64,000 nt of DNA from Beroe forskalii. Lineage: Eukaryota; Ctenophora; Nuda; Beroida; Beroidae. Location of the stretch: contig WFMF01000223.1 of the NCBI GenBank assembly GCA_011033025.1, forward strand, positions 124,001-188,000. Reading direction: 5' to 3'. This document shows positions 11,501-64,000 of this stretch, piece after piece. Position numbers and translations under genes: made by a program. The notes under the pieces were generated by a model. The model did no database searches, had not been told where the DNA came from, and saw only the letters and a program-made list of their open reading frames with translations. Position 1 is the first letter of the stretch. The number at the start of each line of letters is the position of its first letter.

Positions 11501-14470
11501 TCTTATTCAGATTGACTTATTTAGATTGAACTCATTTTTTTGGATCGCAAATTGTTTTAGCATCAAAATTTTTATGCAAGAATGATATTGAAAAAACTCA
11601 CTTTTGACATTTATTTGACCTAGATTACATGTTAAGACGATATCTGAGGTTGCATACGCCGTGAGATACGAGTACGCTTGCCATGTAAAGGATTTCATAG
11701 CCCGTAGGACCAGGCTGGCTTTCCTCAACGTTCAAGCTGCCAGAGAGTGCGTGCCTAGGGTAAGTGGGAAATTCTGGACCAAAAACGCAATAATGGGATT
11801 GTGCTCCAGCTGTGGAACATTGTGTGCCCAAAAATAGAATAGAGTAATGGACTAATGCTGCCTGGCATTCAGCTCACTTAGCAATTAAGAGAAAATTTAG
11901 TAAAATTCATTTCGTCAATAATTGACTTGATTGTCTGCAATTAATGGGATGTCATGATGAAACTTAGAATTCAGGAAAATTCATCCGTACTACCCCAGGT
12001 CGCCCAGTTGATGGCAGCAGAGCTGAGCTGGGATGAAGATACCATAGCTCAGGAGATCAATGATGCAGAGGCTCTTATCAAGTCTATGGGTTAAGTTTGA
12101 AAGCTTCCATATTCAAGTGTTATCTGTTTTTACAATTTTTGATGCTGAAAGAAATTCATTGTTCAGATGAAATGTCAAAAGTTCCTCTTATTGTTCGTTT
12201 TGATACTGATCATGACCTTGCTATTATCTCACAGTTACAAGCTGGCAACGGAAGTGAGACACGAATGTGCTGCGATATCAGTGGCTGATTATCAGCGTTA
12301 TGTCAAGGTCGGTGCTCGAGTTTTTTCATGCTAGTTTCCTAAATCAAAATGAAAATCCAACGTTTTGTTCAGTGCATAAGGTTCTTCAAGTTCAACGTAC
12401 ATTAAAACGTGATCTGAGAACGCCTTCTGTATTCTGTTATTTCCACACGAACCCCATTTGTACGTACGTGATGCTGATTTTACAGTAGGTAACCAAAAAC
12501 ATGAATGATTGTCATTTCTTGACTCAGCGAACCAGAAGCAAGCCGGAGCGGTATTACCCCGCACCGCCTTAACTATGATCTCTCCTCGTGCCTCAGGTAT
12601 TTGAGGAGTTAGATGAGGATGAGAACGGGTTCCTCCAGCCGACAGAGCTGTACAAAGCTTTCGAGAGGCTAGGAGTAGAAATGTCCATACAAGATGCTAT
12701 CAACATCGTCGATGAGGTATGTTTTTAGGAAAAAATAATGCATTTTTGGGCAGTATCCAAGAAGCCCGACCACCATCGCGGAATTCCGCGCGGAATTCCG
12801 TGGTAAAATTCCGCGCGGAATCGACAGCGGAATCAAGGGCGGAAAATTCTGCGCGGAATTTTACCACGGAATCGTGGTCGGAAGATTCTTAAAGCACTAC
12901 CTAAAAGGCGGAACTAGTCAATGCTAAAATCGCAAATAGAATTAAGCTGTATATAATAGGAGTGGGTAAATTTATTAATCAAACGTCAATGTGCTATCGA
13001 CTACATAGGTAAATTTATCAATCAATAAAACTTAAATACGTGAATAAAGCTGCGTAAAGGCAACTTAATCAGTCTCAAGGCGAAGAGAGTCAGAGCAAAC
13101 AACGGATCGCATAGCAGCATCTAAGAAATGATGTCTACAGATAGGATGGGTGTTGACCCCTTTGGAGACCTGGTCACGTGACCCATATGCCTAGCATGCA
13201 AGGGTGGACAGATTGATACAGTCCGGTAGGGCTGATTGGGTGTCTGGTTCGCTCTATACAGCCAGGCCGCCAGGCGTATCTCATCAAATGCTATGTGTCC
13301 CTGTTTGTTCGCTCGCGCTATGCGCGCGTGTTCTCAGAACACGCGCGTTTGCGCGTGCAAAATAAGTCTCACTTCCTTGAAGCTGCTATGCTTGCCTTAT
13401 ACTGGTGCCTTGACTCTTAGTTTGCCACAAGCTTTCTCTGAACACGCGCGCGCAACATAGGTCCTACAACGTAGAACAACCTCTCTATCACATTCGCAAG
13501 AAATTCGGGTAACCAGTATAAGGCAAGCATAGCAGCTTCAAGGAAGTGAGACTTATTTTGCACGCGCAAACGCGCGTGTTCTGAGAACACGCGCGCATAG
13601 CGCGAGCGAACAAACAGGGACACATAGCATTTGATGAGATACGCCTGGCGGCCTGGCTGTATAGAGCGAACCAGACACCCAATCAGCCCTACCGGACTGT
13701 ATCAATCTGTCCACCCTTGCATGCTAGGCATATGGGTCACGTGACCAGGTCTCCAAAGGGGTCAACACCCATCCTATCTGTAGACATCATTTCTTAGATG
13801 CTGCTATGCGATCCGTTGTTTGCTCTGACTCTCTTCGCCTTGAGACTGATTAAGTTGCCTTTACGCAGCTTTATTCACGTATTTAAGTTTTATTGATTGA
13901 TAAATTTACCTATGTAGTCGATAGCACATTGACGTTTGATTAATAAATTTACCCACTCCTATTATATACAGCTTAATTCTATTTGCGATTTTAGCATTGA
14001 CTAGTTCCGCCTTTTAGGTAGTGCTTTAAGAATCTTCCGACCACGATTCCGTGGTAAAATTCCGCGCAGAATTTTCCGCCCTTGATTCCGCTGTCGATTC
14101 CGCGCGGAATTTTACCACGGAATTCCGCGCGGAATTCCGCGATGGTGGTCGGGCTTCTTGGATACTGCCCATTTTTGAACTAATGATTATTTAAACTTGC
14201 CAACTGAATTGTTCAGAAAATGCTATTGATAGTCGGTGGATATCAACTGTTCAAAGTTTCACTATTTTCCTTATTTAATTTATTTTCAATATCGATACCT
14301 CCGCCTAGGTTGACACAAACCGGAACGGTGTCATTGACATGGACGAGTTCCTCATGATCATGGCCGGGTCAGCAGTGGGCAAAGTGGTGGACAGCCGACT
14401 CCAGAAGCTCGTGGAGATGAAGTTGGAGCAGGAGAGACTTCCTCCTGTAAGAAGCAACGGTGGACTTTGA
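5522..14470 (+). CDS. GPD2: Mitochondrial FAD-dependent glycerol-3-phosphate dehydrogenase
   Basis: Seventeen exons: 5522-5647, 5863-5995, 6247-6430, 6681-6819, 7067-7171, 7428-7508, 7683-7816, 8012-8097, 8255-8361, 10318-10488, 11071-11214, 11364-11495, 11649-11759, 11999-12089, 12235-12307, 12597-12716, 14309-14470. They give about 699 residues (human 727). The enzyme oxidises glycerol-3-phosphate to dihydroxyacetone phosphate at the outer face of the inner mitochondrial membrane and reduces ubiquinone. Seen: a short hydrophobic N-terminus, the FAD dinucleotide motif VIGGGASGAG (about 55-64), SSGTSSKSTKLIHGG(I)RYLQ, APHLSAALPIM, NATGPYTDS, GRIIFFLPWE, RRGDVLAAWSG(M)RPLV, TIAGGKWTTYR, TGKRWPLVG, RRTRLAFLNVQAA, two EF-hand loops (DEDENGFLQPTE near 612 and DTNRNGVIDMDE near 648), and a C-terminus ending SNGGL, like the vertebrate SCGGL. 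Summed exon length is one base short of a whole frame, and the defect maps to the 12089/12235 junction (see findings). All other junctions keep phase. Confidence 0.96.
6413..6484 (+). repeat. 24-bp tandem repeat (x3) duplicating a splice donor
   Basis: Three exact 24-bp copies (6413-6436, 6437-6460, 6461-6484) span the last codons of GPD2 exon 3 and its GTGAGT donor, so three identical donors follow one another. Only the first keeps the frame to exon 4; using the second or third adds an in-frame TGA. Confidence 0.95.
8712..8790. repeat. Dispersed hairpin repeat, copy 1
   Basis: It starts ACAAGAATTGCGCCTGC, ends GCAGGCGCTTAATTTCCCTC, and the two ends pair as an inverted repeat around GCGCCTGC/GCAGGCGC. 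A second copy with the same ends and a different middle lies at 23433-23515, which marks it as a mobile or dispersed family of about 80 bp. Confidence 0.75.
9233..9370. repeat. Cluster of GTTCTGATAGC words with a strong hairpin
   Basis: The word TGTTCTGATAGC(C/T)GC occurs three times on the plus strand and once inverted. The inverted pair forms a 20-bp stem with two mismatches at 9273-9325, with a 13-nt loop. It lies in a GPD2 intron, so the hairpin would be present in the pre-mRNA. Confidence 0.75.
9831..10207 (+). repeat. Perfect 190-bp tandem duplication
   Basis: Positions 9831-10020 are repeated at 10021-10207 without any difference I can see, stopping 3 bp short of a full second unit. 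Lack of divergence implies a recent event or an assembly duplication. Each copy holds a 30-codon open frame from ATG that matches no family I can name with confidence. Confidence 0.93.
10240..10302 (+). repeat. 21-bp tandem repeat (x3) before a splice acceptor
   Basis: CACTCTCCGTTGCCCCTCACG is repeated three times and supplies the pyrimidine-rich tract upstream of the GPD2 exon 10 acceptor at 10317. Confidence 0.9.
10666..11133 (+). repeat. Four copies of a GPD2 acceptor plus half-exon
   Basis: A 63-bp coding segment (translation begins DTVDRVIAEHNL) occurs at 10666-10728, 10785-10847, 10925-10987 and 11071-11133, each directly preceded by TTCAG. Only the fourth continues into the rest of exon 11 and a donor (11215). 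Copies 1 and 4 are identical; copy 2 has four base changes, all synonymous; copy 3 has four, two of which change an amino acid. Unit spacing (119, 140 and 146 bp) is not a multiple of three. Confidence 0.95.
12749..14169. mobile_element. 1.42-kb near-perfect palindromic DNA element in GPD2 intron 16
   Basis: Two arms of about 657 bp (12749-13405 and 13513-14169) are reverse complements with few differences and enclose a loop of about 107 bp. Termini read GGCAGTATCC...GGATACTGCC. The flanks carry an 8-bp direct repeat CATTTTTG (12741-12748 and 14170-14177), fitting an 8-bp target-site duplication such as hAT elements leave. No transposase frame is present, so it is non-autonomous. The arms hold GAATTCCGCGCGGAATTC palindromes and GC-rich CGCGCG blocks. 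Sense-strand transcription of GPD2 would make a very long RNA hairpin. Confidence 0.92.
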
Positions 14471-17240: not shown

Positions 17241-18902
17241 TTAATTTTTAGGTTTGACTGGCTCCGAATCTTTGGTGTCCCCATTCCCAGTCCACGGTTT
17301 TCTTTCCGTCCCCTGAAACAAGAGGTGGTCATGAAACTCGAGGAAAATCGAAAAATTAAATTACCATTTTCTTCCTATCAAATGCTTGAGCAAAACGCCG
17401 ATTTTTTATTATGAATATTCCCCTCCGACAGAATGCCAAATTTAATGAACAGGAGCATATCATAACTAGCTCATTCAATGACAATTCAATATTGGACATC
17501 AATTTTGGGCACAAAAATAATCAATATCATGAATCTAACCCACCTTCCGTGCATTATCTTCGTCCTGCCTCTTCTCATAATGACCAAAGTCATCGAAAAT
17601 GGAAGTGGAGTGTTTGTAATCGTGAATAATTCTCATGAGCTGCATTCCCTTGTCCCTGGGGACCTCCTGGGTGTCTCTCGAGTTCGTAACGGGTTTGTTG
17701 TCATTGTTCTCCAGCTTTATATGCCGTAACTGATTATTGGGAACATCCTTGACGTAAATCCATTTGACATCGAATTTACCCTTCCATTTGTCTTGCGACC
17801 AGACGCCAGTACAAATGTTCGTGTCTACGCCCGACACCATCTCGGCAACCCCGCAGAAGTGCCCACTTCCGTTGACGCTGTACACCAGATAGATAGGTCC
17901 CTTGGACTTGGAGTCGTTCCAAGCCTCGTTCAGTCTCTTATTACCATGCTCTGTACTCGTCCAAATATTATACTTGATAGACCGGTGGATGTCGTCTTCA
18001 GAGTAAGATTTGATAACGAAATACCGGGCATTTTTGAGATCCATCGCCAGTTCCCGGGGATTATAAAGATTTTCTGATTGCAGTTTCTCCAGAACGGCGG
18101 GAGGAGGCGGAGGTTTGGAGTCCATCACACTACCGGGATACTCCGGGCCCTGAGAGAAGCCAGAGTTGCCACCAGCCCCTCCGCCCCGGGATTGACTCCA
18201 CCGCACCCCACCACGGCCCATCCTAGCTGGCACCTGTCCAGCCCCACCCAGCCCAGGTTTCAGGGTGAAGGCGCTAGGCGCTGGCTCAGGCTTAGGTTTG
18301 GGTTTAGCAGGTTGACTAGCAATGGCTGCCCAAGACTTCGGACCCGGATCAACCGGGGGCGGAGCAGGGGTAGGGTCTACGTTGTCAGAAGACTTCAAGT
18401 TGCTGAGCGATTCAGTCACCTGATCGATATCAGAAGCAGGCGACTGCAAGGGCTTATTCTTATCTTGATTAGGTTGATAGTGCCCAACTTGTTGAAACGA
18501 ATTGAACGAGTTAAAGCCCTGCATGGGCGGCAAGCCAGCAGTAGTCCAGTAATCGTTGGTATTATTAGGAGAGAAGTAAACAGGTAAGTTCGGCTGATAG
18601 AGAGACGAGGTTGAGGTCAGCGTAGGAGAAGCTGGGTAGCCGTGGTCGCCACTAAAATCTCTGAAATCGTGCAATGGCTGAGACGTGGGCAACTGGTTGT
18701 ATTGACCGTCAAATGCACCGTTCGACCACGTTCCACCCAGCGCCCCGATATTGTCGTAGTTGTTGTTGATGAACGGAAAAGCCGACATGGCCGGTGGCGA
18801 GTTGAGCGCTGACGTGGCGTAGTACATGGCGGGGATGTAGTTAGGGTCCATGATCGGTTGCTGGGCCAGCGGCTGGGGAACGCTCATCTGAGGTCCAGAG
18901 GC
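17241..18902 (-). CDS. YTHDF: YTHDF-family m6A RNA-binding protein
   Basis: The large exon is 18902-17544 and the last exon 17312-17241, separated by a 231-bp intron (donor GTGGGT, acceptor TTTCAG). From the ATG at 18887 the product is about 471 residues. YTHDF proteins bind N6-methyladenosine in cytoplasmic mRNA and steer translation and decay. Seen: a low-complexity N-terminus rich in P, N, S, Q, Y and G (1-270), the family motif [13 protein letters not shown] (about 183-195), [14 protein letters not shown] (264-277) and a YTH domain from about 287 to 440 ([41 protein letters not shown]). The aromatic cage tryptophans are present (W309, W363, W368). The ATG is preceded within 20 bp by an acceptor-like TTTCAG at 18903-18910, so a short upstream exon, perhaps with the true start, probably exists and was not identified. 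Confidence 0.96.
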
Positions 18903-19586
18903 CTGAAATTAATTAATAATTTAACACGTCATCTATAATTTCGGTTGAGGTAATTATATTTCCCCGGGGTAATTTCGTAGTTACCATGTGAATTCTGGAT
19001 GTGCGCGCAAGCGTTCGTGCGTGAGGTATCATCCCCGCGCAATGTAGTCTTTACGCGTGGACACCGAAATAAGAAGACCCTTTTGGCACATTTTCGCCTG
19101 AATTGTGACACAATGACATAACTGGATTTGACGAAAAATTGCACAATACCACATCACCCAGCCAAAAGTTTTCCATGTGATGTGGTGAAAACTATACACC
19201 ATATCACAGGTACAATTGCTATTTATACAAGTCAATGTAAGTCAACTGACCCTATTTCTTGAGGATTTAACGGTTTTCGTGAAAAACTCGCCGTATTTTG
19301 ATAGCAAATTTGAAATATAATTTCGATCAAATCTTGCGATCAACTTCGATAGCAATTGTTAATGGAGAATGAGGGTGTTAATTCGACAAAATTTGATCTA
19401 TTAATACCACACCAAATCATGGATCATTAATTACACCCTGGAAATGCGATAACCTGGATCATTTGAATTTGAATAGTGTACTTGAGTACCCTAACTACAA
19501 TTAATTTTTGATATCTCACCAAAAAGGGCTTAATGAGAATACCTTGAAATGAAATTTCATTGAAATGAACATTCTCGATTCATGTC
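18903..19586 (-). promoter_or_regulatory. Presumed 5' end and promoter region of YTHDF
   Basis: The sequence upstream of the YTHDF coding exon includes a CpG-richer patch near 19000-19050 (GTGCGCGCAAGCGTTCGTGC). No TATA box or first exon could be fixed. The assignment is positional only. Confidence 0.25.
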
Positions 19587-24073: not shown

Positions 24074-24842
24074 ACCCGTCTGCTAGTACTTTGTGCGCTG
24101 GTTGCTGCCGCACGCGCGATTGTTATACTGTGCGCGTTCGCGGATCTGTGATCTGATGGCAGAGGAATTGTAAAAGAGTCAAGAAATCTAGAAAACTCAA
24201 AGTACCTAAGCGGATCCGCTAAGCTACTGCTAAGCGGATCCGCTTAGCTACTGTTAAGCGGATCCGCTTAGCTTAGCGGATCCGCTTAGCTCAATGGATT
24301 CAGCTCAGCGGATTCAATATTCATCTGAGAGGATTCAGCTGACTGCCTGAGAGGATTCGGTTTTGCGGATTCAGCTATTGCTGTGTAGATCTGCTAAGCT
24401 ACTGCTAGTGCTAAGCGGATCCGCTTAGCTTAACGGATTCAGCTGAGAGGATTCAGTTTAGAGGATTCAGCTATAGGCGGATTTAGCAGAAAGGATTCAG
24501 GTAATCGGATTCGGCTTAACGGATTCACTTTCAGCTGAAGGCAGATTCAGCTTAGCGGATTCAGTAGTGGATTCAGCTCAGAACTAGAAGATTCAGCTAA
24601 ACGGATTCAGTCAAGTCGAGTCATCGATTCGTTGACCCGACTCGGTTTAGCGGATTCAGCTTGAGCTTGACCGATCTGCTAAGCTACTGCTAGTGCTATA
24701 AGCGGATCCGCTTAGCTTAGCGGATTCAGCTGAGAGGATTCGGTTTATCGGATTTAGCTAAAAGCGGATATAGCTGAGAGGATTCAGGTAATCAGATACG
24801 GCTAAACGGATTCAGCTGAGAGCCGATTCAGCTTAGCGGATT

Positions 24843-26235
24843 CAGTCGAGTCGAGTCATCGATTCGTTGACTCGACTCGACAACTCGACGACTCGACCCG
24901 ACAACTCGATTCGAGTCGATTCGACTCGACTCGACTCGACGGTACTCGACTCTGACGACACTCGACAACTCGATTCGACGACTCGACGACGACTCGACGA
25001 CGACTCGACTCGACTCGACTCGACTCGACTCGACTCGACTCGACGACTCGACTCGACGACTCGACGACTCGAACTCGACGACTCGACTCGACTCGACTCG
25101 ACGACTCGACTCGACTCGACGACTCGACTCGACGACTCGACTTGTGTCCAGTCGTCGAGTCCAGTCGTCGAGTCGTTTTGAGCCGTCGAGTCGAGTTTTC
25201 GAGTCGTCGAGTCGAGTACCATCGAGTTGACTTTGAGTCGTCGAGTCGAATCAAGTCGTCGAATTGGGTCGTCGAGTTGAATCGTCGAATTGAGTCGTCG
25301 AATTGAGTCGTCGAATCGTCGAGTTGTCCAGTCGAGTCGAGCTGTCGAGTCGAGTCGACGACTCGAGTCGTCTTTCGAGTCGTCGAGTCGAGTCGTCGAG
25401 TCGAGTCGTCGAGTCGAGTCGTCGAGTCGAGTCGTCGAGTCGAGTCGTCGAGTCGTCGAGTCGAGTCGTCGAGTCGAGTCGAGTCGAGTCGATTCGAGTC
25501 GTCGAGTCGAGTCGAGTCGTCGAGTCGAGTCGTCGAGTCGAGTCACGTCGAGTCGAGTCGAGTCGTCGAGTCGTCGAGTCGTCGAGTCGAGTCGTCGAGT
25601 CGTCGCGTCGAGTCGTCGAGTCGAGTTGTCGAGTCGAGTCGTCGAGTCGAGTCGTCGAGTCGAGTCGTCGAGTCGAGTCGAGTCGAGTCGTCGAGTCGAG
25701 TCGAGTCGAGTCGAGTCGAGTCGAGTCGAGTCGAGTCGAGTCGTCGAGTCGAGTCGAGTCGAGTCGAGTCGAGTCGTCGAGTCGAGTCGAGTCGTCGAGT
25801 CGTCGAGTCGAGTCGAGTCGAGTCGAGTCGAGTCGAGTCGAGTCGAGTCGTCGAGTCGAGTCGTCGAGTCGAGTCGATCGAGTCGAGTCGAGTCGAGTCG
25901 AGTCGAGTCGAGTCGAGTCGAGTCGAGTCGAGTCGAGTCGAGTCGAGTCGATTCGAGTCGAGTCGATTCGAGTCGATTCGATTCGAGTCGAGTCGATTCG
26001 AGTCGAGTCGAGTCGAGTCGAGTCGAGTCGAATCGAGTCGAGTCGAGTCGAGCCGAGTCGTCGAGTCGAATCGAGTTGTCGAGTCGTCAACTCAAGTCGA
26101 GTACCGTCGAGTCGAGTACCGTCGAGTCGAGTCGAGCCGTCGAGTCGTTGAGTCGAATCGACTCGAATCGAGTTGTCGGGTCGAGTCGTCGAGTTGTCGA
26201 GTCGAGTCAACGAATCGATGACTCGACTCGACTGA
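24843..26235. repeat. TCGAG/GTCGA pentamer satellite with strand switch
   Basis: About 1.4 kb of 5-bp GTCGA units mixed with 8-bp GTCGTCGA units. Left of about 25141 the array reads CGACT; right of about 25147 it reads AGTCG, so orientation flips inside. The left part is about 300 bp and the right about 1,090 bp. The long frames on both strands (repeating STRLD or RVESS) come only from the absence of stop triplets in the unit. Confidence 0.97.
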
Positions 26236-27345
26236 ATCCGCTAAGCTGAATCGGCTCTCAGCTGAATCCGTTTAGCCGTATCTGATTACCTGAATCCTCT
26301 CAGCTATATCCGCTTTTAGCTAAATCCGATAAACCGAATCCTCTCAGCTGAATCCGCTAAGCTAAGCGGATCCGCTTAGCACTAGCAGTAGCTTAGCAGA
26401 TCGGTCAAGCTCAAGCTGAATCCGCTAAACCGAGTCGGGTCAACGAATCGATGACTCGACTTGACTGAATCCGTTTAGCTGAATCTTCTAGTTCTGAGCT
26501 GAATCCACTACTGAATCCGCTAAGCTGAATCTGCCTTCAGCTGAAAGTGAATCCGTTAAGCCGAATCCGATTACCTGAATCCTTTCAGCTAAATCCGCCT
26601 ATAGCTGAATCCTCTAAACCGAATCCTCTCAGCTGAATCCGTTAAGCTAAGCGGATCCGCTTAGCACTAGCAGTAGCTTAGCAGATCTACACAGCAATAG
26701 CTGAATCCGCAAAACCGAATCCTCTCAGGCAGTCAGCTGAATCCTCTCAGATGAATATTGAATCCGCTGAGCTGAATCCATTGAGCTAAGCGGATCCGCT
26801 AAGCTAAGCGGATCCGCTTAACAGTAGCTAAGCGGATCCGCTTAGCAGTAGCTTAGCGGATCCGCTTAGGTACTTTGAGTTTTCTTAGATTTCTTGACTC
26901 TTTTGTTCTCTCGTTTACTTGATGCTGCCATCTTTGAGTAATTTTGCTAAATCTGCTTAGTCGAATCCGCTCGTGCTGAAGTATTAAGAGATTAAACAAA
27001 GAAACAAACTCGATCGCGATCTGGATTATAAGTTCATGCGTTTCTTCAGAAGCTGGTCTTCAGTATTATAGTATTGGTAAGCTTTAAAAGTTGAAACAGT
27101 GGACCCAGCCACTGCCATAAGCAATTCCTACAATTCCTCTGCCATCAGATCACAGATCCGCGAACGCGCACAGTATAACAATCGCGCGCGCGGAAGCAAC
27201 CAGCGCACAAAGTACTAGCAGACGGGTCACGTGATATGACACGTGACATGACGTCACGAAACACAAAAAGGCCCTGCGGACAAGGAAGGCATTGTCCAAT
27301 TTCAAAAAACTTGATATATTCGTGATCAGCTCACTGAGATCTACC

Positions 27346-32005: not shown

Positions 32006-33114
<1,109 letters not shown>

Positions 33115-36104: not shown

Positions 36105-37240
36105 AATTGTTGCTCAGGAGCCATTCAGTAGTGTGAGAGGACCGTCAGGAGTGTTATAGGATCATTCAGGAGTGTTAGAGGACTGTCAGGAGTGTAAGAG
36201 GGTAATTCAGGAGTGTTAGAGGACTGTCAGGAGTGTAAGAGGGTCGTTCAGGAGTGTTAGAGGACCGTCAGGAGTGTTAGAGGGTCGTTCAGGAGTGTTA
36301 GAGGACTGTCAGGAGTGTTATAGGATCATTCAGGAGTGTTAGAGGACTGTCAGGAGTGTAAGAGGGTAATTCAGGAGTGTTAGAGGACTGTCAGGAGTGT
36401 AAGAGGGTCGTTCAGGAGTGTTAGAGGACCGTCAGGAGTGTTAGAGGGTCGTTCAGGAGTACAAGAGGACCTTCAGGAGTGTTATAGGATCATTCAGGAG
36501 TGTTAGAGGACTGTCAGGAGTGTAAGAGGGTCATTCAGGAGTGTTAGAGGACTGTCAGGAGTGTAAGAGGGTCGTTCAGGAGTACAAGAGGACCTTCAGG
36601 AGTGTTATAGGATCATTCAGGAGTGTTAGAGGACTGTCAGGAGTGTAAGAGGGTCATTCAGGAGTGTTAGAGGACTGTCAGGAGTGTAAGAGGGTCATTC
36701 AGGAGTGTTAGAGGACTGTCAGGAGTGTTATAGGATCATTCAGGAGTGTTAGAGGACTGTCAGGAGTGTAAGAGGGTCGTTCAGGAGTGTTAGAGGACTG
36801 TCAGGAGTGTTATAGGATCATTCAGGAGTGTTAGAGGACTGTCAGGAGTGTTATAGGGTCATTCAGGAGTGTTAGAGGACTGTCAGGAGTGTAAGAGGGT
36901 CATTCAGGAGTGTTAGAGGACTGTCAGGAGTGTAAGAGGGTCATTCAGGAGTGTTAGAGGACTGTCAGGAGTGTAATAGGATCATTCAGGAGTGTTAGAG
37001 GACTGTCAGGAGTGTAAGAGGGTCGTTCAGGAGTGTTAGAGGACCGTCAGGAGTGTAAGAGGGTCGTTCAGGAGTGTTAGAGGACCGTCAGGAGTGTAAG
37101 AAGACCGTCAGGAGTGTGAAAGGGTCGTTCAGGTGTGTGAGGGTCGTTCAGAACTGTGAGGGTCGTTCAGAACTGTGAGGGTTGTTCAGAAACTGTGAGA
37201 AGGTCGTTAAAGAGATTGAGAGGTTGGTTCAGGAGTGTGA
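36105..37240 (+). repeat. 20/21-bp minisatellite (about 50 units)
   Basis: Alternating units TTCAGGAGTGTTAGAGGAC and TGTCAGGAGTGTAAGAGGGTC build a 41-bp dimer, with higher-order blocks repeated (for example the block with GAGTACAAGAGGACCTTCAG twice). It fills the right side of the insertion in the foldback arm. Confidence 0.96.
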
Positions 37241-53380: not shown

Positions 53381-54195
53381 GAATGGAATCAATGGAATGG
53401 TCATAGTATGGAGTAAAAAGTGGGCAGCAGTTTGTATAAAATAGACATATCGGTAAAAGGGTCACAAGAGTTTTGAATTTTGTCCAATGGATCCATAATG
53501 TCCAATGGACGTCCATTGGACATCCAATGGACATCCATTGAACATCCAATGGACATCCATTGAACATGATGCCCATCGGTAAAAATATGTCCAATGGTGT
53601 TCAATGGATCCAATAGATCCATATTTGATGTTCTATGGACATGTTCAATGGATGTTCAATGGATCCATCTTCTGAGAGGATTTAATGGAAACAATTTCAC
53701 CAAAGATGGTTTGGTAGATGAACATCAGTCTGGTATTTTTATTCAATGGATCCAATGGATTCATTGTGTCCGTTGAACACCATTGGACGTGTCCATTGGA
53801 TCCATTGTACATTGTGTCCATTGGATCCGATTGTTCCATTTTGTCCATTGGACACAATGGATCCATTGAACACTTGCACTATAGATCCAATGGACTCAAT
53901 GTGCAATGGATGCAATGGACATGCCCAATAGTGTTCAATGGACAAAATGGATCCATTCGATCCAATGGACACAATGGGTCTGCACTCTGCATTGAACAAA
54001 AATACCAGACTGATTTCCATCCACCAAAACATGACTTGGTGATTGTGTCCATTGAATCCATTGAACATCAAAAATGGATCCAATAGGTCCATAGGATCCA
54101 TTGAAAAACCATTGGACAATTTTACCAATGGACATCATGTTCAATGGATGAGCATTGAGCAATGAACGTCTATTGGACATGATGGATACAATGGG
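53381..54195. repeat. CAATGGATCCATTG palindromic-word array
   Basis: About 35 occurrences of CCATTG/CAATGG in words such as CAATGGATCCATTG, TCCAATGGACATCCATTG and GGACACAATGG. Because the core is palindromic, both strands read alike. A small remnant (CAATGGATCCATTGGAC) lies on the far side of the nested block at 57229-57245. Confidence 0.93.
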
Positions 54196-54302
54196 GCAAA
54201 ATGGTACCACAGGAACACGACAAAAATTAGCCTCAATTAGCCTCCATGGAGGCTGAGTGGAGCCTGAGTGGAGGCTGAGTGGAGCCTAAGTGGAGGCTAA
54301 TT

Positions 54303-54470
54303 TGGGGGGGGGGGGGCCAACCCCCCAAAACCCCCCAAAATCAAACCCCCTATTGGAAATTTGTAATATCCACTAGGGGGTTAAATTAAACCCCCCAAAA
54401 TTAAACCCCCTATCGACAGCAAAAATTAAACCCCCCAAAATTAAACCCCCTATCGACAGCAAAAAATATT
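54303..54470. repeat. Poly-G/C-terminated repeat, left flank of GGTACC array
   Basis: Starts with a run of 13 G, then CCAACCCCCCAAAACCCCCC, TATCCACTAGGGGGTTAA, and two copies of AAATTAAACCCCCTATCGACA. Confidence 0.9.
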
Positions 54471-54479
54471 CTAGTATGA

Positions 54480-55465
54480 TTCAAAAAAGCACCAAAATGA
54501 AGAAACAAAAAAGGTACCATTTGAAAAAGTTGCCAAAAATCACAAATAACTGAATAAAAAAGGTACCATTTCGAAAAGGCGCAAAAAAATCAGACACAAA
54601 TTTGGTACCATTTCAAAAGGGTGCATCTGAAAGATCAGAAATGAAACGGGTACCAATTGAAAATGATGCCAAAAATCAACAACAAAATTGGTACCATTTA
54701 AAAAAGGGGCTGAATGCCTGAAACAAAAACGGTACCATTTCTGAAAGGTGCAAAAATCAGAAACGAAAAATGGTACCATTTGAGCATTTGCAAAACGTGT
54801 GAAAAATCACGAACAAAAACGGTACCATTTCAAAAAAAAGTGCCAAAAATCACAAAAAATGGTACCATTTCAAAAAAAATTCCAAAAACTATGAAGAAAA
54901 ATGGTACCATTTGGAAAATGTGCCAAAAACCGGAAACAAAAATGGTACCGTATTTAAAAATCGCCAAAAATCACACCCAAAAATGGCACCATTTTGAAAT
55001 GGTGCAAAAATCAGAAACGAAAAACGGTACCATTTCACAAAAGTGCCAAAAATCACGACCAAAAATGGTACCATTTGGAAAATGTGTCCAAAACCAGAAA
55101 CAAAAATGGTACCATTTTTAAAAATCGCCAAAAATCACGACCAAAAATGGTACTATTTTGAAATGGACCAAAAAATCAGGAACAAAAATGGTACCATTTT
55201 GAAAATGTGTCAAAAACCGGAATGAGAAATGGTACCATTTTGTCAATGTGCAGAAAATAAAGAACAAAAACAAACGGTACCATTACAAAAAAGTGCCAAA
55301 AATCACAAACAAAAATGGTACCATTCCAAAAAAAGTTCAAAAACCGGACACAAAAATGGTACCATTTTGAAAAATCGCCAAAAAATACGACCAAAAATGG
55401 TACCATTTTGAGATGGTGCAAAAAATCAGGAACAAAAATGGTACTATTTGGAAAAAAATGCCCCT
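54480..55465. repeat. GGTACC-centred satellite, second array
   Basis: About 22 units of roughly 42 bp (AAAAATGGTACCATTT, then GAAAA.GTGCCAAAAATCAC.A). Read on the minus strand they match the 29134-30185 array (GATTTTTGGC, AAATGGTACCATTTTTG). Confidence 0.95.
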
Positions 55466-55499
55466 TTTTGCACAGTTAAGGTTGTTTTTGTTTAAGAAT

Positions 55500-55600
55500 T
55501 AAGCCCCCCAAAACCCCCCAAAACCCCCCAAAATTAAACCCCCTATTGACGATTTTTTATATCCACCAAAATTGAGGGGGTTGCCCCCCCCCCCCTAATT
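55500..55600. repeat. Poly-C-terminated repeat, right flank of GGTACC array
   Basis: Three AAAACCCCCC units, AAATTAAACCCCCTATTGACG, TATCCACC, GAGGGGGTTG and a terminal run of 13 C. It mirrors the left flank. Confidence 0.9.
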
Positions 55601-55604
55601 TCAA

Positions 55605-57199
55605 AAATTAGCCTCCATGGAGGCTAATGGAGGCATGAGGCTAATTTTTGAAAAATAGCCTCCACTATGGAGGCTAATTAGCCTCCACTAGCCTCCATTA
55701 GCCTCCACTAGCCTCCATGGAGGCTAAAATTTTGGTTTAGCCTCCACTAGCCTCCACTAGCCTCCACTAGCCTCCACTAGCCTCCACTGAAGAATTAGCC
55801 TCCATTAGCCTCCACGGAAACTGAAATATAACATTTTTGTGGAGGCTAAAGCTTTAATATGGAGGCTAATGGAGGCTGAGGAGCCTAGTGGAGGCTATGG
55901 AGGCTGGAGTGGAGCCTAAATCAATTAGCCTCCAAAAACAAAATTTCTTGCTGAAAATGTTGATTTATGTGCACAATGTGAAAAACAATATATAGCTTCA
56001 AACTTTCAGACAGCTCCAACTATCCTACACTCAGCCTCCATTAGGCCCCACTCAGCCTCCACTAGGCTCCACTCAGCCTCCACTAGGCTCCACTCAGCCT
56101 CCACTAGGCTCCACTCAGCCTCCACTAGGCTCCACTCAGCCTCCACTAGGCTCCACTCAGCCTCCACTAGGCTCCACTAGGCTCCACTAGGCTCCACTAG
56201 CCTCCACTAGGCTCCACTAGCCTCCACTAGCCTCCATTAGGCCCCACTAGCCCACCAGCCTCCACAGCTCCACTCAGCCTTCCACTAGGCCCACTCAGCC
56301 CACCAGCCTCCACTCAGCCCACTAGCTCCACCAGCCTATCCCCACTCAGCCTTCCAGGCCCACCAGCCTAGTAGAGCCTAGTGGAGCCTAGTGGAGGCTA
56401 ATGGAGCCTAGTTAAGGCTAGTGGAGCCTAGTGGAGGCTAGTGGAGCCTAGTGGAGGCTGAGTGGTGCCTAGTGGAGGCTTAGTGGAGGCTGCGTGGAGG
56501 CTAGTGGAGGCTGAGTGGAGGCTGCGTAGAGGCTAGTGGAGGCTGAATAGAGCCTAGTGGAGGCTGAGTGGAGCATAGTGGAGGCTGAGTGGAGCCTAGT
56601 GGAGGCTGAGTGGAGCCTAGTGGAGGCTGAGTGGAGCCTAGTGGAGGCTGAGTGGAGCCTAGTGGAGGTTGAGTGGATTCTAGTGGAGGCTGAGTGGTAC
56701 CTAATACTAGCTGGGTTAGAAACTTTGGTCTATGTTACAAAATGCACTCTTTTTGTACAAAACTGACATAAATCTAATTTTGTGGAGGCTAGCATATTAT
56801 CTGTGTTTTTTCATGATTTTAGCCTCCATTTGGAGGCTATAGCCTCCACTAGCACTGTCAAAACAGCTTCCATAGAATCCAAAAAATGAATTTTCAAATT
56901 TCCGTGGAGGCTAATGGAGGCTAATTCTTAAGTGGAGGCTAGTGGAGGCTAGTGGAGGCTAAACAAAATTTTAGCCTCCATGGAGGCTGAGTGGAGCCTG
57001 AGTGGAGCCTGAATGGAGGCTAGTGGAGGCTAATGGAGGCTAGTGGAGGCTAATTAGCCTCCATAGCGGAGGCTATTTTTCAAAAATTAGCCTCATGCCT
57101 CCATTAGCCTCCATGGAGGCTAATTTTTGAAATTAGCCTCCACTTAGGCTCCACTCAGGCTCCACTCAGCCTCCATGGAGGCTAATGGAGCCTAATTTT
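55605..57199. repeat. GCCTCCACTAG(G) minisatellite with strand switches
   Basis: Units GCCTCCACTAG, GCTCCACTCA and GCCTCCATGGAGGC dominate. Between about 55930 and 56360 the strand reads GCCTCCACTAGGCTCCACTC; from about 56365 to 56710 it reads the complement GTGGAGCCTAGTGGAGGCTG. Two A/T-rich interruptions (55930-56025, 56700-56920) are partly inverted copies of each other. Confidence 0.93.
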
Positions 57200-57538
57200 G
57201 GTCGTGTTCCTGTGGTACCATTTTGCCTACAATGGATCCATTGGACAAAATTCACAACTCTTGTGACAAATCAATTGGAACCAAAAACTGTTGGTCTAGA
57301 ATCAAAAGTTGATCTAATATTTTGCCTCAAAAATCAAATAGACACATCAAGTGTCACCAGAAACTAAGTAAAATTGTCAGAGAAAGCTCACAATGAAAAG
57401 AACTAAATATTACATAAATCCAGGTTCATATTACTATATTAGCCAGGAAAGTGGACCATCCTGCCTCAAATAGGGATGCCAATTGGCACCAAAAACTAAA
57501 TAAACTTTTCAGTGAAAATTTACAGTAGTAGTAGACTA

Positions 57539-57959
57539 CCTTATTGGCCTTTATTTAACCGGCCCTTAAGGACAAAAATGACTTTGAGATTTTTGTCCAA
57601 AGGGCCAGTTAAAAAAAGGCCGGTTAAAGTTGGGCCGGTCAAATTAAAGGCCAGTCAATTTAGGTCAAATGAAACTTTTATGACTTGCCTTTTATTCTTG
57701 TGAACGTCATTATATAACACGATAATGACCCAAATCATCACATAAGATCGGGATTTGGGTCTTTTGGTGCAATTTATGAAATGTAAATGGGTTTTAATGG
57801 CCATTTTAGAGCAAAAAATCGTTGCTCTGGTGACCACTAGAAAAATTTTTGTCGAAGGGGCCGGCTAAAACGGATCAAAATTGATTCGATTCTTGTCCAT
57901 AGGGCCGGTTAAAAAAAGGGCCGGTTAAAAAAAGGCCGGCTAAATAAAGGCCAATAAGG
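57539..57959. mobile_element. 421-bp MITE with TA target duplication
   Basis: Ends CCTTATTGGCCTTTATTTAA and TAAATAAAGGCCAATAAGG are inverted; GGGCCGGTTAAAAAAAGG words repeat inside. TA flanks both sides (57537-57538, 57960-57961). It is absent from the homologous site in satellite block 2 (near 60494), so it inserted after the block duplication or was lost there. Confidence 0.9.
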
Positions 57960-60900
57960 TAGATTGAAAATATAAAATAAATGTGTATATATTGGGTTAA
58001 AAATTGGGAAATGCATAGGTATTGAATATATATGTAAATACATGTTTATAATTGTGGATTATACAGTGGGCAATATTTTGCCTTAAATAGACAACCAAGA
58101 ACTAGATAAAATTTCAAGCAAAGCTTGCAATAAACTTACAATAAACTTGATAGGAAAATACAGAAGACACAAGCTATAAAATTGTGCAGAATGAAGAGAG
58201 TTATATTTTGACTCAGACAGCAAATCAAGTGCACAAGTGGCATCAAATACTCAATAAAATTGTCAGTGAAAGTGTACAACAATGCAGTTTGAAAATAGCA
58301 AAAATATATGTCCATATTGTGGGATATAAAGTATGTGAATTTTGTCTCAACAATGAATGAACAAATATTTTGCTTCAAATATGCAATGTGCCAAGTGGCA
58401 CCAAGAACTAAGAAACGTTTTCAGTGAAAATTTTCAATAAAGTAGATTGAAATTGACAAAATGCATGTTCATATTGGGCAAAAAATTGGGCAGTGCTTGC
58501 CTCAAATAAGCAAATAGACATATCAACTGTCATCAAAAACTAGGTAAACTAGGTGAAGGAAAAATTACATAAAACTTATAGTCTTCTTTGTAGAACAAAT
58601 ACAGATTATGCATGGAGCTGTTGGAGGGTTTTTGGGCTATACTTCTTCTTTGTGAAAGTTAAGCCACAAAACTCTCCAACAACTTCATCCAAACTCTTTT
58701 TGGGATCCATGAAAGAGTGCCTTCATCAAAGATCTAGGCAGATCAAAATAAAGCATAATGAGACACCAAAAATGATGAGGTGTAATGATCAGCCGAATGG
58801 GCTTTAAAAAAGTTTTAAAAAGTGAAAACATGGTTGAAATTAACATTAAATGCATGCTCATATTGGGCATAGAAATTAGGCAAATGATTTGCCACAAATA
58901 GGCCGGTCAAGTGGCATGAACAAAAACTATGTAGTGTTCACTGAAAACTTGCATTAAAATAGATTACAAATAACATAAACATATATATGTTGATATTGTG
59001 AAGTATTTGAATTAAAAAGAAATCTTTCTTCAAGACAATTAATAAATCTACAGGAAACATGCTCCTTCTTGTGAGCACAATGTGAAGTATAAGGTGGGAA
59101 ATATTTTGCCTCAAATAGACAACAAATACTAGTTGAAATTTTCAGTAAATTAGCTTACCAATTCAAAATGACAGAAAATAAATTATGTGGATAATGAAAT
59201 GGGCAATATTTTCCCTCAGATAGACAAGACATATCAAGTGGAACCGAAAATGGAAAACTAGATAAAATTTTAAGTAAAAGCTAACAATACTAAATGGCAT
59301 CAAGAGGCATATATAGCTTGAAAGGAAAACCATATCCACAGTATTTTGCCTCAAAACAGTGCCTTAAATGAACTTAAACTTAGTTCATATAGAAGGATTA
59401 TAAAAATATTTATATATCAAGAATTAGAACAACTCATCAATAAAGCTGGGATCCAAGGATTGAAACTTGGAGATGAAAACCTGTGTTTAGTTTGATAATA
59501 AATTATAAGCAACTATCTTACAGGACCAAAACAAGGCCAAAAACTGTTCTTTAAATTGTAAAATGGGTGATTTTTTTTATTTCAAAGGTTCAAATTATAT
59601 ATTGCAATAATATGTACAATAACACTTGTCAAAATTTCCTACCTATTAATGCAACATATAACTTGGGGAACACAACACAGCTTAGCCATAATAACAGTGT
59701 TCCCCTACAATTATACCAATCAAATCATATTTGTATGATAATCATAGAAGCCAAGAAATAAATAGTAAATGTGCCCATATTACTTACTTAAAATCCTAAT
59801 TGATAAATTAGAAAGTTAAAATAGATAAATAAATTAGGGATATCAAACACAATTTTTATATCACAGATTTAAACCTTGACGACATACATGAAACCTTGAC
59901 TAAATAAATACATACTACATGATACTACATAATAGGTTGATTTTAGTTTATTAATACCTAGCATTCACAGCTGCATTTCTCAGTATGATTCAAGGTAAAT
60001 ACTAAAATATTATGTGTCACTAGTCATCCTATACTTCAAGGCAAAAACGCCTTTTTCTACGAATACCCAATGCATGCTTGAAGCTGCTGTTACTTTTACC
60101 TTGAAGGAAAAACCTGGGTCCTGATTATTGTGGAAGCTGTCATTCCTGGCCGTTTGTACTTACAGACCTATGCTCTATCGTTCCTTGAGAGGTTAATACT
60201 CATGCACTTAATCTCTCTTGTGACCCTTTTAACGATATATCAATTGGAACCAAAAACTATTGGTCTGGAGTCAAAAGTTGATCAAATTATATTTTGCCTC
60301 AAAATTCAAATAGACACATCAATTGGCACCAGAAACTAAGTGACATTGTCAAAGAAAGCTTACAATGAAATTAATTAAATATTACATAAATCCAGGTTCA
60401 TATTAATAGCCAGGAAAGTGGACCATCTTGCCTCAAATAGGCATGCCAAGTGGCACCAAAAACTAAGTAAACTTTTCAGTGAAAATTTACAGTAGACCAG
60501 ATTGAATATGACATGAAATTAATGTTTATATTGGGCCAAAAAGTTGGTCAATGCTTTGGCACCTCGAATAGACATATGAAGTGCCACCAAAAACTAGGTA
60601 AAATAGGTAAAATAGATTGACAATGACATATTATGAATATGTAATTATGTAAATACATGTTTATAATTGTGGAGTATAAAGTGGGCAACATTTTGCCTCA
60701 AATAGACAGCAAAAAACTAGATAAAAGTTCTAGCAAAGCTTACAGATAAAACAACAATAAACTTGATAGGAAAATACAGAAGAAACAAGCTAATATTGTG
60801 AAGAATGAAGTGAGCTATATTTTGACTCAGACAGACAAATCAAGTGGCATCAAAAACTAAATGAAATTGCCAGTGAAAGTTTACAATAATGTAGTTTGAA

Positions 60901-61274
60901 ATAGCAAAAATACATGTCCATATTGTGAGGCATAAGGCCATTTTTGTCTAAACAATGAACAACTACTTTAAGATGAAATTTTCATTAAAACTTGTCAGTG
61001 AAAACATCCAATAAACAAGATTAAAACTAACATAAAGTGCATGTCCATATTGGGATGAAAATTGGGCAAGGTTTTGCCTCAAATAGGCATGACACGTGGC
61101 ATCAAAAACTGAGAAAAATTTTCAGTGAAAATTTTCAATAAACTAGATTGAAATTGGCATAAAATACATTGCTTGCCTCAAATAGACATATCAACTGGCA
61201 CCAAAAACTAGGTAAACTAGGTAAAGGGAAAATCACATAAAACTAGTCTTCTTTGTAGAACAAATACAGACTAT

Positions 61275-61355
61275 GGATGGAGCTGCTAGAGAGTTTTGTG
61301 GCTTGACTTCTTCTTTGTGAAAGTCAAGCCACAAAACTCTCCAACAACTCCATCC
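61275..61355 (+). ncRNA. Candidate precursor-like hairpin in the AT satellite
   Basis: A perfect 21-bp stem (GAGAGTTTTGTGGCTTGACTT with its complement) around an 11-nt loop, a small bulge, then an 8-bp lower stem (GGATGGAG/CTCCATCC). The size and shape resemble an animal microRNA precursor. The equivalent place in block 1 (58611-58690) keeps the 3' arm but the 5' arm has mismatches. Expression is unknown; a satellite hairpin without function is equally possible. Confidence 0.35.
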
Positions 61356-62155
61356 ATAATCTTTGATGGTATCCATGAAAGAGTGCCTTCATCAAAGATC
61401 TAGGCAGATCCAGATAAAGCATAGACACCAAAAATGATATGGTGTAATGAAAGCTAACACTGAGCCACATGGACTTTGCAAAAGTGAAAACATGTACATG
61501 GTGGAAATTAACATGAAATACACATTAATATTCTCATACTGGGCATGAAAATTATGCAAATGATTTACCTCAAATAGGCATATCAAGTGGCACCATAAAC
61601 TGAGTAAATTGTTCACTGAAAACTTGCATTAAAATGAATTACAAATATCATAAATATATGTCCACAATGCGAAGTATAAAGTGGGAAATATTTTGCCTCA
61701 AATAGACACCAAAAACTAGGTGAAATTTTCAGCATAAATTAGCTTACAAATTGAAAACGACAGAAACTACATTTTGTGGAGACAGAAAATGGATTTTGTA
61801 GAGAATGAAGTCGGCAATGAAATGAAAGCTCAAAATAATAAGGCATTAAGAGGTAAATATAGCTTGGAAAGAAAAAATCACATTCATGGACACTGTTTGC
61901 CCTCAAAACAGTGCCTCAAATGAGTTTAAAAAAAGTTACTTCCTATGGAGGTATTATGAAAACTATACATATATCATGACCTCATGAAGTACAACTTGTC
62001 AATAAATAAATAAATAAAATAAAATAAACAAAATAAATAAAAGGGATCCAAGGATTGAAACATAGAAAGGAAAACCTGTGAATGATAACAGATTATAAGC
62101 AGCTATCTTACAGGACCAGAGCTAACCGAAAAACTGTTCTTTCAATGGTAAAATA

Positions 62156-62924: not shown

Positions 62925-64000
62925 CAATGGTCCACTGGTAGATCTCAGTGAGCTGATCACGAATATATCAAGTTTTATTGAAATTGGACAATGCCTTCCT
63001 TGTCCGCAGGGCCTTTTTGTGTTTCGTGACGTCATGTCACGTGTCATATCACGTGACCCGTCTGCTAGTATGTAGTACTTTGTGCGCTGGTTGCTTCCGC
63101 GCGCGCGATTGTTCGCGGATCTGTGATCTGATGGCAGAGGAATTGTAGGAATTACTTATGGCAGTGGCTGGGTCCACTGTTTCAACTTTTAAAGCTTACC
63201 AATACTATAATACTGAAGACCAGCTTCTGAAGAAACGCATGAACTTATAATCCACTAGATCGCGATCGAGTTTGTTTCTTTGTTTAATATCTTAATACTT
63301 CAGCACGAGCGGATTCGACTAAGCAAATTTAGCAAAATTACTCAAAGATGGCAGCATCAAGTAAGCGAGAGAACAAAAGAGTCAAGAAATCTAGAAAACT
63401 CAAAGTACCTAAGCGGATCCGCTAAGCTACTGCTAAGCGGATCCGCTTACCTACTGATAAGCGGATCCGCTTAGCTTAGCGGATCCGCTTAGCTCAATGG
63501 ATTCAGCTCAGCGGATTCAGCTCAGCGGATTCAGCTCAGCGGATTCAATATTCATCTGAGAGGATTCAGCTGACTGCCTGAGAGGATTCGATTTTGCGGA
63601 TTCAGCTATTGCTGTGTAGATCTGCTAAGCTACTGCTAGTGCTAAGCGGATCCACTTAGCTTAACGGATTCAGCTGAGAGGATTCGGTTTAGAGGATTCA
63701 GCTATAGGCGGATTTAGCTGAAAGGATTCAGGTAATCGGATTCGGCTGAACGGATTCACTTTCAGCTGAAGGCAGATTCAGCTTAGCGGATTCAGTAGTG
63801 GATTCAGCTCAGAACTAGAAGATTCAGCTAAACGGATTCAGTCAATGTCGAGTCATCGATTCGTTGACCTGACTCGGTTAAGCGGATTCAGCTTGAGCTT
63901 GACCGATCTGCTAAGCTACTGCTAGTGCTAAGCGGATCCGCTTAGCTTAGCGGATTCAGCTGAGAGGATTCGGTTTATCGGATTTAGCTAAAAGCGGATA
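62925..64000 (+). mobile_element. Arm of the palindromic element, cut by the window end
   Basis: From CAATGGTCCACTGGTAGATC the sequence follows the left arm of the 23945-27345 element, and includes the roughly 200 bp missing there. It reaches the AAGCGGATCCGCTT and GCGGATTCAGCT blocks at the window edge, so a TCGAG-type array may lie just beyond. Confidence 0.93.
63348..63425 (+). CDS. Short basic open frame in the palindrome arm
   Basis: ATG opens 25 codons, 12 of them Lys or Arg (MAASSKRENKRVKKSRK...), before TAA. GTAAGC follows codon 4 and would make a good donor, so the ATG could instead be a captured first exon. The inverted arm at 26930-26865 keeps the ATG and the first 15 codons with one synonymous change, then shifts frame by an inserted A. 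It sits about 300 bp downstream of the TGACGTCA/CACGTG cluster. No known product. Confidence 0.25.
   Translation: MAASSKRENKRVKKSRKLKVPKRIR

Follow-up and report, generated by a model that had tools for sequence, protein, structure and literature searches.

The DNA considered here, referred to as the window, is a 64,000-nucleotide stretch of the genome of the ctenophore Beroe forskalii (positions 124001-188000 of contig C274, in an assembly of 216 Mb and 1134 contigs). It encodes a YTH-family protein at 17535-18908, and between 53381 and 57275 it carries a block of short tandem repeats in which the same series is encountered whether the block is read inward from the left or from the right. 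This block almost certainly consists of three non-autonomous cut-and-paste foldback transposons, here named A, B and C, which are nested three deep and represent new families of a known type (Table 1). The series reads alike from both sides because every element brings inverted ends together with a minisatellite word specific to its own arms. Further genome stretches that were compared with the window carry L numbers; one of them, L009 (contig C247, 668304-676304), is a second copy of the same locus.

Table 1. Nested elements, their target site duplications (TSDs) and the surrounding repeat, in window positions; TIR, terminal inverted repeat.
Feature	Position	Strand	Description
Left TSD of A	53444..53451	+	GACATATC; right copy lost in the window
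Element A, foldback transposon	53452..57267	.	TIR GGTAAAAGKGTCACAAGAGT; CCAATGG/CCATTGG words form the arms, with GGATCC as core; split by the B insertion
Left TSD of B	54187..54194	+	TACAATGG, 8 bp; present once in the L009 junction that has A only
Element B, foldback transposon	54195..57227	.	TIR GGCAAAATGGTACCACAGGAACACGAC; GCCTCCA words form the arms, with CCATGG as core
Left TSD of C	54298..54303	+	TAATTT; single copy in L009, which is empty of C
Element C	54304..55595	.	poly-G/poly-C ends GGGGGGGCCAACCCCCC...GGGGGTTGCCCCCC around an array of about 41-bp TGGTACCATTT units
Right TSD of C	55596..55601	+	TAATTT, 6 bp
Right TSD of B	57228..57235	+	TACAATGG, 8 bp
Dispersed repeat hosting A	57268..61700	+	sub-repeats with AAATAGACATATCAAYTGGCACC; fills much of 57.3-61.7 kb

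The nested order of the block is genuine and lies well above chance level. An inverted end word marks the two sides (TCACAAGAG at 53462 and CTCTTGTGA at 57258, with one more CTCTTGTGA at 60215), and a second inverted pair consists of CAAAATGGTACCACAGGAAC, at 54197, with its reverse complement, at 57206. For arms separated by 2500 nt or more, the longest inverted repeat that is exact measures 38 nt, whereas none above 13 nt arose in 100 dinucleotide shuffles of the block; for a separation of 1200 nt or more the corresponding figures are 69 and 15 nt. Within 53381-57275 the words are also sorted by layer: all 11 copies of GGATCC fall inside A, all 76 of GCCTCCA/TGGAGGC and all six of CCATGG inside B, and all seven of CCCCCCAAAA inside C, with GGTACC found 20 times in C and three times in B. 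Exact copies of ATCCATTGG are scarce (one on the + strand and two as CCAATGGAT), and the repeated word of A is CCATTGG/CCAATGG, each of whose 16 occurrences lies in A. The inverted words and the layer order reported in a preliminary description of this DNA are present as stated, and the long inverted repeats exceed those of all 100 shuffles. That account had set the outer boundary at 53461; the inverted word was found, but the end of A begins at 53452. The symmetry of the stack holds for order only, the layer sizes being unequal on the two sides: the insertion point of B lies 40 bp from the right end of A, with 743 bp of A to its left, and that of C lies 109 bp from the left end of B, with 1632 bp of B to its right (each length includes a TSD copy).

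The fullest evidence for transposition comes from element B, whose native length is 1735 bp and whose fixed end of 27 bp is distributed genome-wide. Searching the genome with the block's right end returned at least 41 matches (the best 40 of 888 candidates were scored), and 38 of the 41 listed span just query bases 1 to 48-62, so that they stop near one boundary. Outside the end GGCAAAATGGTACCACAGGAACACGAC the flanks differ between loci (overlapping loci apart), and the same 8 bases stand beside both ends of each copy. Among 19 copies with both ends, 16 have exact 8-bp TSDs and three have one mismatch (L020, L025 and the outer copy of L065); this count excludes the one-ended loci L009, L017, L019, L022 and L024, the overlapping loci L001-L008, L029 and L030, and the B-like matches of L044, L045, L047, L054 and L056, whose ends carry three mismatches. 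The first 22 bases of the B end have 269 exact matches in the genome, which would correspond to some 130 copies or more, and the reversed pattern has none.

Two-ended copies of B range from 280 bp (L026, with an exact TSD) up to 7360 bp with inserts, and the 280-bp copy either transposed at that size or was shortened later. In 17 copies, 1543 spacings below 60 bp separate arm words (GCCTCCA, GGCTCCA and their complements) of like orientation, and 1084 of them measure 10 or 11 bp. The identity of left and right arms averages 0.875 within a copy and 0.841 for opposite arms of different copies, with L026 omitted as too short. Continuing homogenisation of the arms within a copy was considered and rejected; no strong sign of it was seen, a copy's own arm ranking first in only 4 of 18 cases. 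A B-like element of 208 bp at L044:2619-2826 (209 bp at L045:2676-2884) has ends with three mismatches and an exact 8-bp TSD, TTTTGACT, and lies near an A copy. At L066:150-4984 a B copy holds between its arms a frame, identified by eye, that resembles that of a non-long-terminal-repeat retrotransposon.

Element A has a native length of 775 bp, or 783 bp with the two TSD copies of B included. A search with its left end found dispersed copies that match from about base 53452 onward (at least 80 matches; the best 40 of 700 candidates were scored), and the 25-base end GGTAAAAGTGTCACAAGAGTTGTGA has 495 genome matches at no more than three mismatches, against 0 for the reversed-pattern control. The right end in the window is without the final TIR bases, reading GTGAC in place of GTGACCCTTTTACC; L015 keeps a fuller right end, which is followed by GACATATC, identical to the 8 bases immediately left of A in the window. 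Among eight other copies, hand-picked from the 30 loci of the left-end search (some of them overlapping), four have exact 8-bp TSDs and two have TSDs with one mismatch. One A copy folds into a near-complete hairpin (z = -21.9). The commonest spacings of the A words (n=220) are 9 bp (41), 18 bp (36) and 11 bp (34), and phasing solely at 10-11 bp was rejected, the 9- and 18-bp spacings leading as well. When the flanks of A are joined they resemble one unit of a dispersed repeat, with 107 genome matches at no more than three mismatches (reversed-pattern control 0), and 37 of 100 listed matches are at two mismatches. Since the sub-repeats of this unit also extend across 57.3-61.7 kb, it is probable that one further layer lies outside the outermost layer of the preliminary description.

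Element C differs in its ends, which are a G-run and a C-run, and these enclose the GGTACC array in all seven C loci examined (the window and L059, L060, L061, L062, L063 and L064). L061 and L063 have a common flank, which leaves six independent loci. The number of GGTACC words, counted over the whole fetched stretch, is 10 in L060, 23 in L061, 5 in L062 and 21 in L063, and the spacing of GGTACC in C is 41 bp in 64 of 122 cases. A further 20 right ends all extend to the same C-run and differ in the sequence beyond it, the exceptions being L069, whose flank is identical to that of L061, and L070, whose edge is less sharp and has extra Cs. Exact 6-bp TSDs flank the copies in the window (TAATTT), L059 (TACCTA) and L064 (AAATTT). 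The preliminary description made two layers of the poly-C repeat and GGTACC array; a separate array layer (D) was rejected on the evidence of the seven loci, and the two are parts of one element. A similar array at 29.1-30.3 kb of the window has a C-type end on a single side only.

The second copy of the locus provides intermediate states of the nest. L009 is collinear with the window, with gaps, its main left pieces being 97.8-99.4% identical and its right pieces 93.3-98.3%, and contig C247 stays collinear back to about 39.8 kb of the window, again with gaps and mostly at 98-100%. L009 contains A together with B's left part and no C, and the target of C is uninterrupted (CTAATTTCAAAAATTAGCC). 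About 470 bp into B it switches back to A, at window position 53952, and then reads through GATGGATACAATGGATCCATTGG, the uninterrupted B target of this locus, into the shortened right end of A. The other A copies listed read TCCAATGG, also uninterrupted, at the site of the B target, one of them with a base missing. Three states are recorded in this way, namely A, A with B, and A with B and C, the A-only state being known just as a junction. At L009:3770-4040 the right part of B is lost and part of A is repeated. The simplest reading of the arrangement is a recombination that would have joined copies of this locus with and without B; precise loss of B from the duplicate is less likely. L009 may be the other haplotype or a recent segmental duplicate. 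Being without C, and having the A target of B uninterrupted, it is a locus with fewer layers of the kind that the preliminary description had proposed to look for. Together with the TSDs and the copies of each layer elsewhere, it bears out one of the two origins offered there, the repeated insertion of foldback elements.

Several observations weigh against reading the block as three nested foldback transposons. Two of the eight A copies examined have no TSD, and the joined flanks of A have no exact match in the genome, all matches carrying at least two mismatches. Three of the six independent C loci are without an exact 6-bp TSD (L061 and L063 agree at 5 of 6 positions, L062 has 5 bp and L060 is unclear). 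The YTH segment was matched once in the genome, on C274 only, and L009 is thus possibly a segmental duplicate and not the other haplotype. No transposase was found linked to A, B or C, and no GGYAAAA ends were present at Merlin transposase loci, in two loci of about 2 kb each. The arrangement of the nest is known from assembled contigs. That the assembly had joined unrelated repeats in this highly repetitive region is nonetheless hardly credible, as a misjoin would not give exact 8- and 6-bp duplications at family-standard ends and the second contig has the same left junction of A and B at the same position.

Another alternative accepts the insertions and makes them directed: foldback elements would prefer the palindrome or hairpin centres of earlier elements, and concentric stacks would be the outcome. 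The preliminary description had likewise placed each insertion in the palindromic centre of the previous element. The nest itself offers some encouragement for such a rule. The C target adjoins the centre of a hairpin with 12-bp arms, a score equalled at 8 of 1695 B positions, and the B target adjoins a GGATCC palindrome, a score equalled at 61 of 735 A positions. The wider samples argue against it. For 18 B sites (the two-ended copies without the outer copy of L065) the mean mid-rank is 0.47, where 0.5 means no preference; three sites are at or below 0.09 (L020, the window and L025), the L020 target also being of top rank. In 25 C right flanks, tested over the duplication and the downstream side, the mean hairpin arm is 2.2 as against 2.25 in controls, and only the window (6) and L064 (5) stand out above 3; these flanks are the 20 new ones with the window, L059, L061, L062 and L064, the L069 and L061 flanks being identical. 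Over 31 sites of A, B and C the mean fraction of controls that score at least as high as the site is 0.59, a set in which the C site of the window is misplaced.

Inverted flanks gave a similar result. B lies between them in 4 of 18 cases (L011, L027, the inner copy of L065 and the window, which was ascertained), three of the 18 having shortened flanks, compared with 17 of 133 positions drawn at random from the window beyond the nest; in these samples nesting was not shown to exceed what the local density of inverted repeats would give. Independent nests do exist: in L027 B lies in A at a different site; at L065:145-7504 B lies in B, the inner TSD (GTTTTTCA) being exact and the outer having one mismatch, in an outer copy that seemingly has other, unrelated inserts; and at L064:130-2560 C lies in an element whose words are GTCCCAATTG and which apparently represents one more foldback family. 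With B and C only 40 and 109 bp from the ends of their hosts, the claim of insertion at palindromic centres is wrong for whole elements, and the 18 B sites and 25 C flanks do not support it as a local rule. The position of C on a local hairpin centre is an exception without recurrence, and directed nesting as a general explanation is very unlikely.

It is extremely unlikely that the layers are satellites that expanded in place from palindromic centres, by replication slippage or hairpin-primed copying and without any transposition, which was the second origin offered in the preliminary description. The arms are indeed built of short palindromic tandem words, and the 10- or 11-bp step of the B words is what tandem amplification would be expected to give. 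Exact TSDs, fixed ends with differing flanks, the absence of a whole layer in L009 and the off-centre position of the layers all argue against this, and the empty sites refute it as the origin of the layers. Expansion in place may still be the source of word multiplication inside a single element.

Long inverted arms with tandem repeats, fixed TIRs with TSDs of constant length (weaker in C, 3 of 6 exact), and dispersed copies with empty sites, the marks of foldback-type (FB-like) elements, were all found here. In the excerpts of the published accounts drawn on here, foldback elements with repetitive arms (Galileo, Tetris and Tm1), and nested insertions in them, are already described (PMC2775673, PMC4079207, PMC3169594). 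Galileo of Drosophila, a member of the P superfamily, has long, internally repetitive arms, non-autonomous copies and TIR elements with 8-bp TSDs nested within it (PMC2775673), features in which A, B and C resemble it; its own TSD is 7 bp, in contrast to 8 bp in A and B and 6 bp in C, so that the TSD length of Galileo was not seen here. Tetris of Drosophila virilis is likewise a non-autonomous foldback, with arm tandem repeats that can grow into satellite arrays, TSDs of 8-10 bp and an autonomous partner that the excerpted account reports as not found (PMC4079207), but its repeats are about 220 bp, unlike the short palindromic words of A and B, set mostly at steps of 9-11 bp or twice that, and the 41-bp unit of C. 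Tm1 of Meloidogyne, assigned to Mutator/Foldback, has composite TIRs with repeated motifs of about 14 bp and in one copy a second, nested inverted-repeat element; its TSDs are 8-10 bp, most commonly 9, as compared with 8 in 19 of 19 B copies, and some Tm1 copies encode a putative transposase (PMC3169594). Nested long terminal repeat retrotransposons of plants also nest by insertion of whole units, and a weak palindrome preference is recorded for them in the excerpted account (PMC6911290), but they are another class of element, and no palindrome preference was detected here. No description of the A, B or C families was found among the titles and abstract openings listed from one literature library, with search terms that did not include the name of the organism, and the three are apparently new families of a known kind.

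The window contains other repeats and frames. A further foldback element at 12749-14169 has perfect 18-base ends GGCAGTATCCAAGAAGCC, an 8-bp TSD CATTTTTG on both sides and arm words CGCGGAATTCCG; its end type (GG, 8 bp) is that of A and B, and a single copy was seen. Another foldback, at 24206-26869 with approximate boundaries, has palindromic arms of AGCGGATCCGCT around a long GTCGA array, and a second copy with matching outer sequence lies at the right edge (63409-64000). An open frame of 413 aa at 45639-46877 matches reverse transcriptase weakly, with a score under the curated cut-off. Simple repeats include a GT run of 520 bp with 99% matches (32008-32527), a 41-bp minisatellite with about 24 copies and 91% matches (36122-37101) and a perfect 190-bp tandem duplication (9828-10208).

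The boundaries, the duplications, the copies elsewhere and the intermediate states are all shown, and they point to a history of three insertions. A first went into an older dispersed repeat and created an 8-bp duplication; B next inserted close to the right end of A, where it duplicated TACAATGG; and C, with its internal GGTACC array, then inserted close to the left end of B, where it duplicated TAATTT. The frames of at least 120 aa in the block run through repeats, and the copies of A, B and C look non-coding; the long B copies that were inspected contain satellite frames or frames apparently unrelated. A transposase would have to act in trans, and A, B and C were presumably each mobilised in this way. 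The genome has 35 matches to Merlin-type (IS1595-type) and 46 to MULE transposases, and the domains PF12762 and PF10551 are present without an established link to A, B or C, the comparison of ends covering the two Merlin loci; searches for PF18758 and for PF21787, the latter aimed at a THAP/P-type transposase like that of the P superfamily, gave no matches, and are uninformative since their controls likewise gave none.

The arm repeats of Galileo foldback TIRs hold additional transposase-binding sites, according to the excerpted account (PMC3688188). By analogy, the arm words found here could be present or former accessory binding sites for a transposase, multiplied by slippage or unequal exchange. 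The helical phasing of the B words (10-11 bp) and of the C words (41 bp) is suggestive, and A is without such phasing; a regular word spacing would also be expected from simple tandem amplification. A wider conjecture, which at present seems doubtful, is that the genome hosts a guild of foldback families, namely A, B and that of the element at 12749-14169, with ends starting with GG, 8-bp TSDs and arms that each family re-invented from a different short palindromic word. The step would be 10-11 bp, or one helical turn, in B and about 41 bp, or four turns, in the separate C family; the words would be arrays of same-face sites bound by transposases that are specific to each family and belong to a single superfamily, unrecognised or little known; and nesting together with arm expansion would steadily yield new satellites.

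The concentric satellite pattern of this locus, puzzling at first sight, is a stratigraphy of transposon insertions, with intermediate states preserved within one genome. The boundaries of the three foldback families can be used in a repeat library. Given a transposase, a binding assay on the regularly spaced palindromic words could test the old question of why the arms of foldback elements are built of internal repeats.

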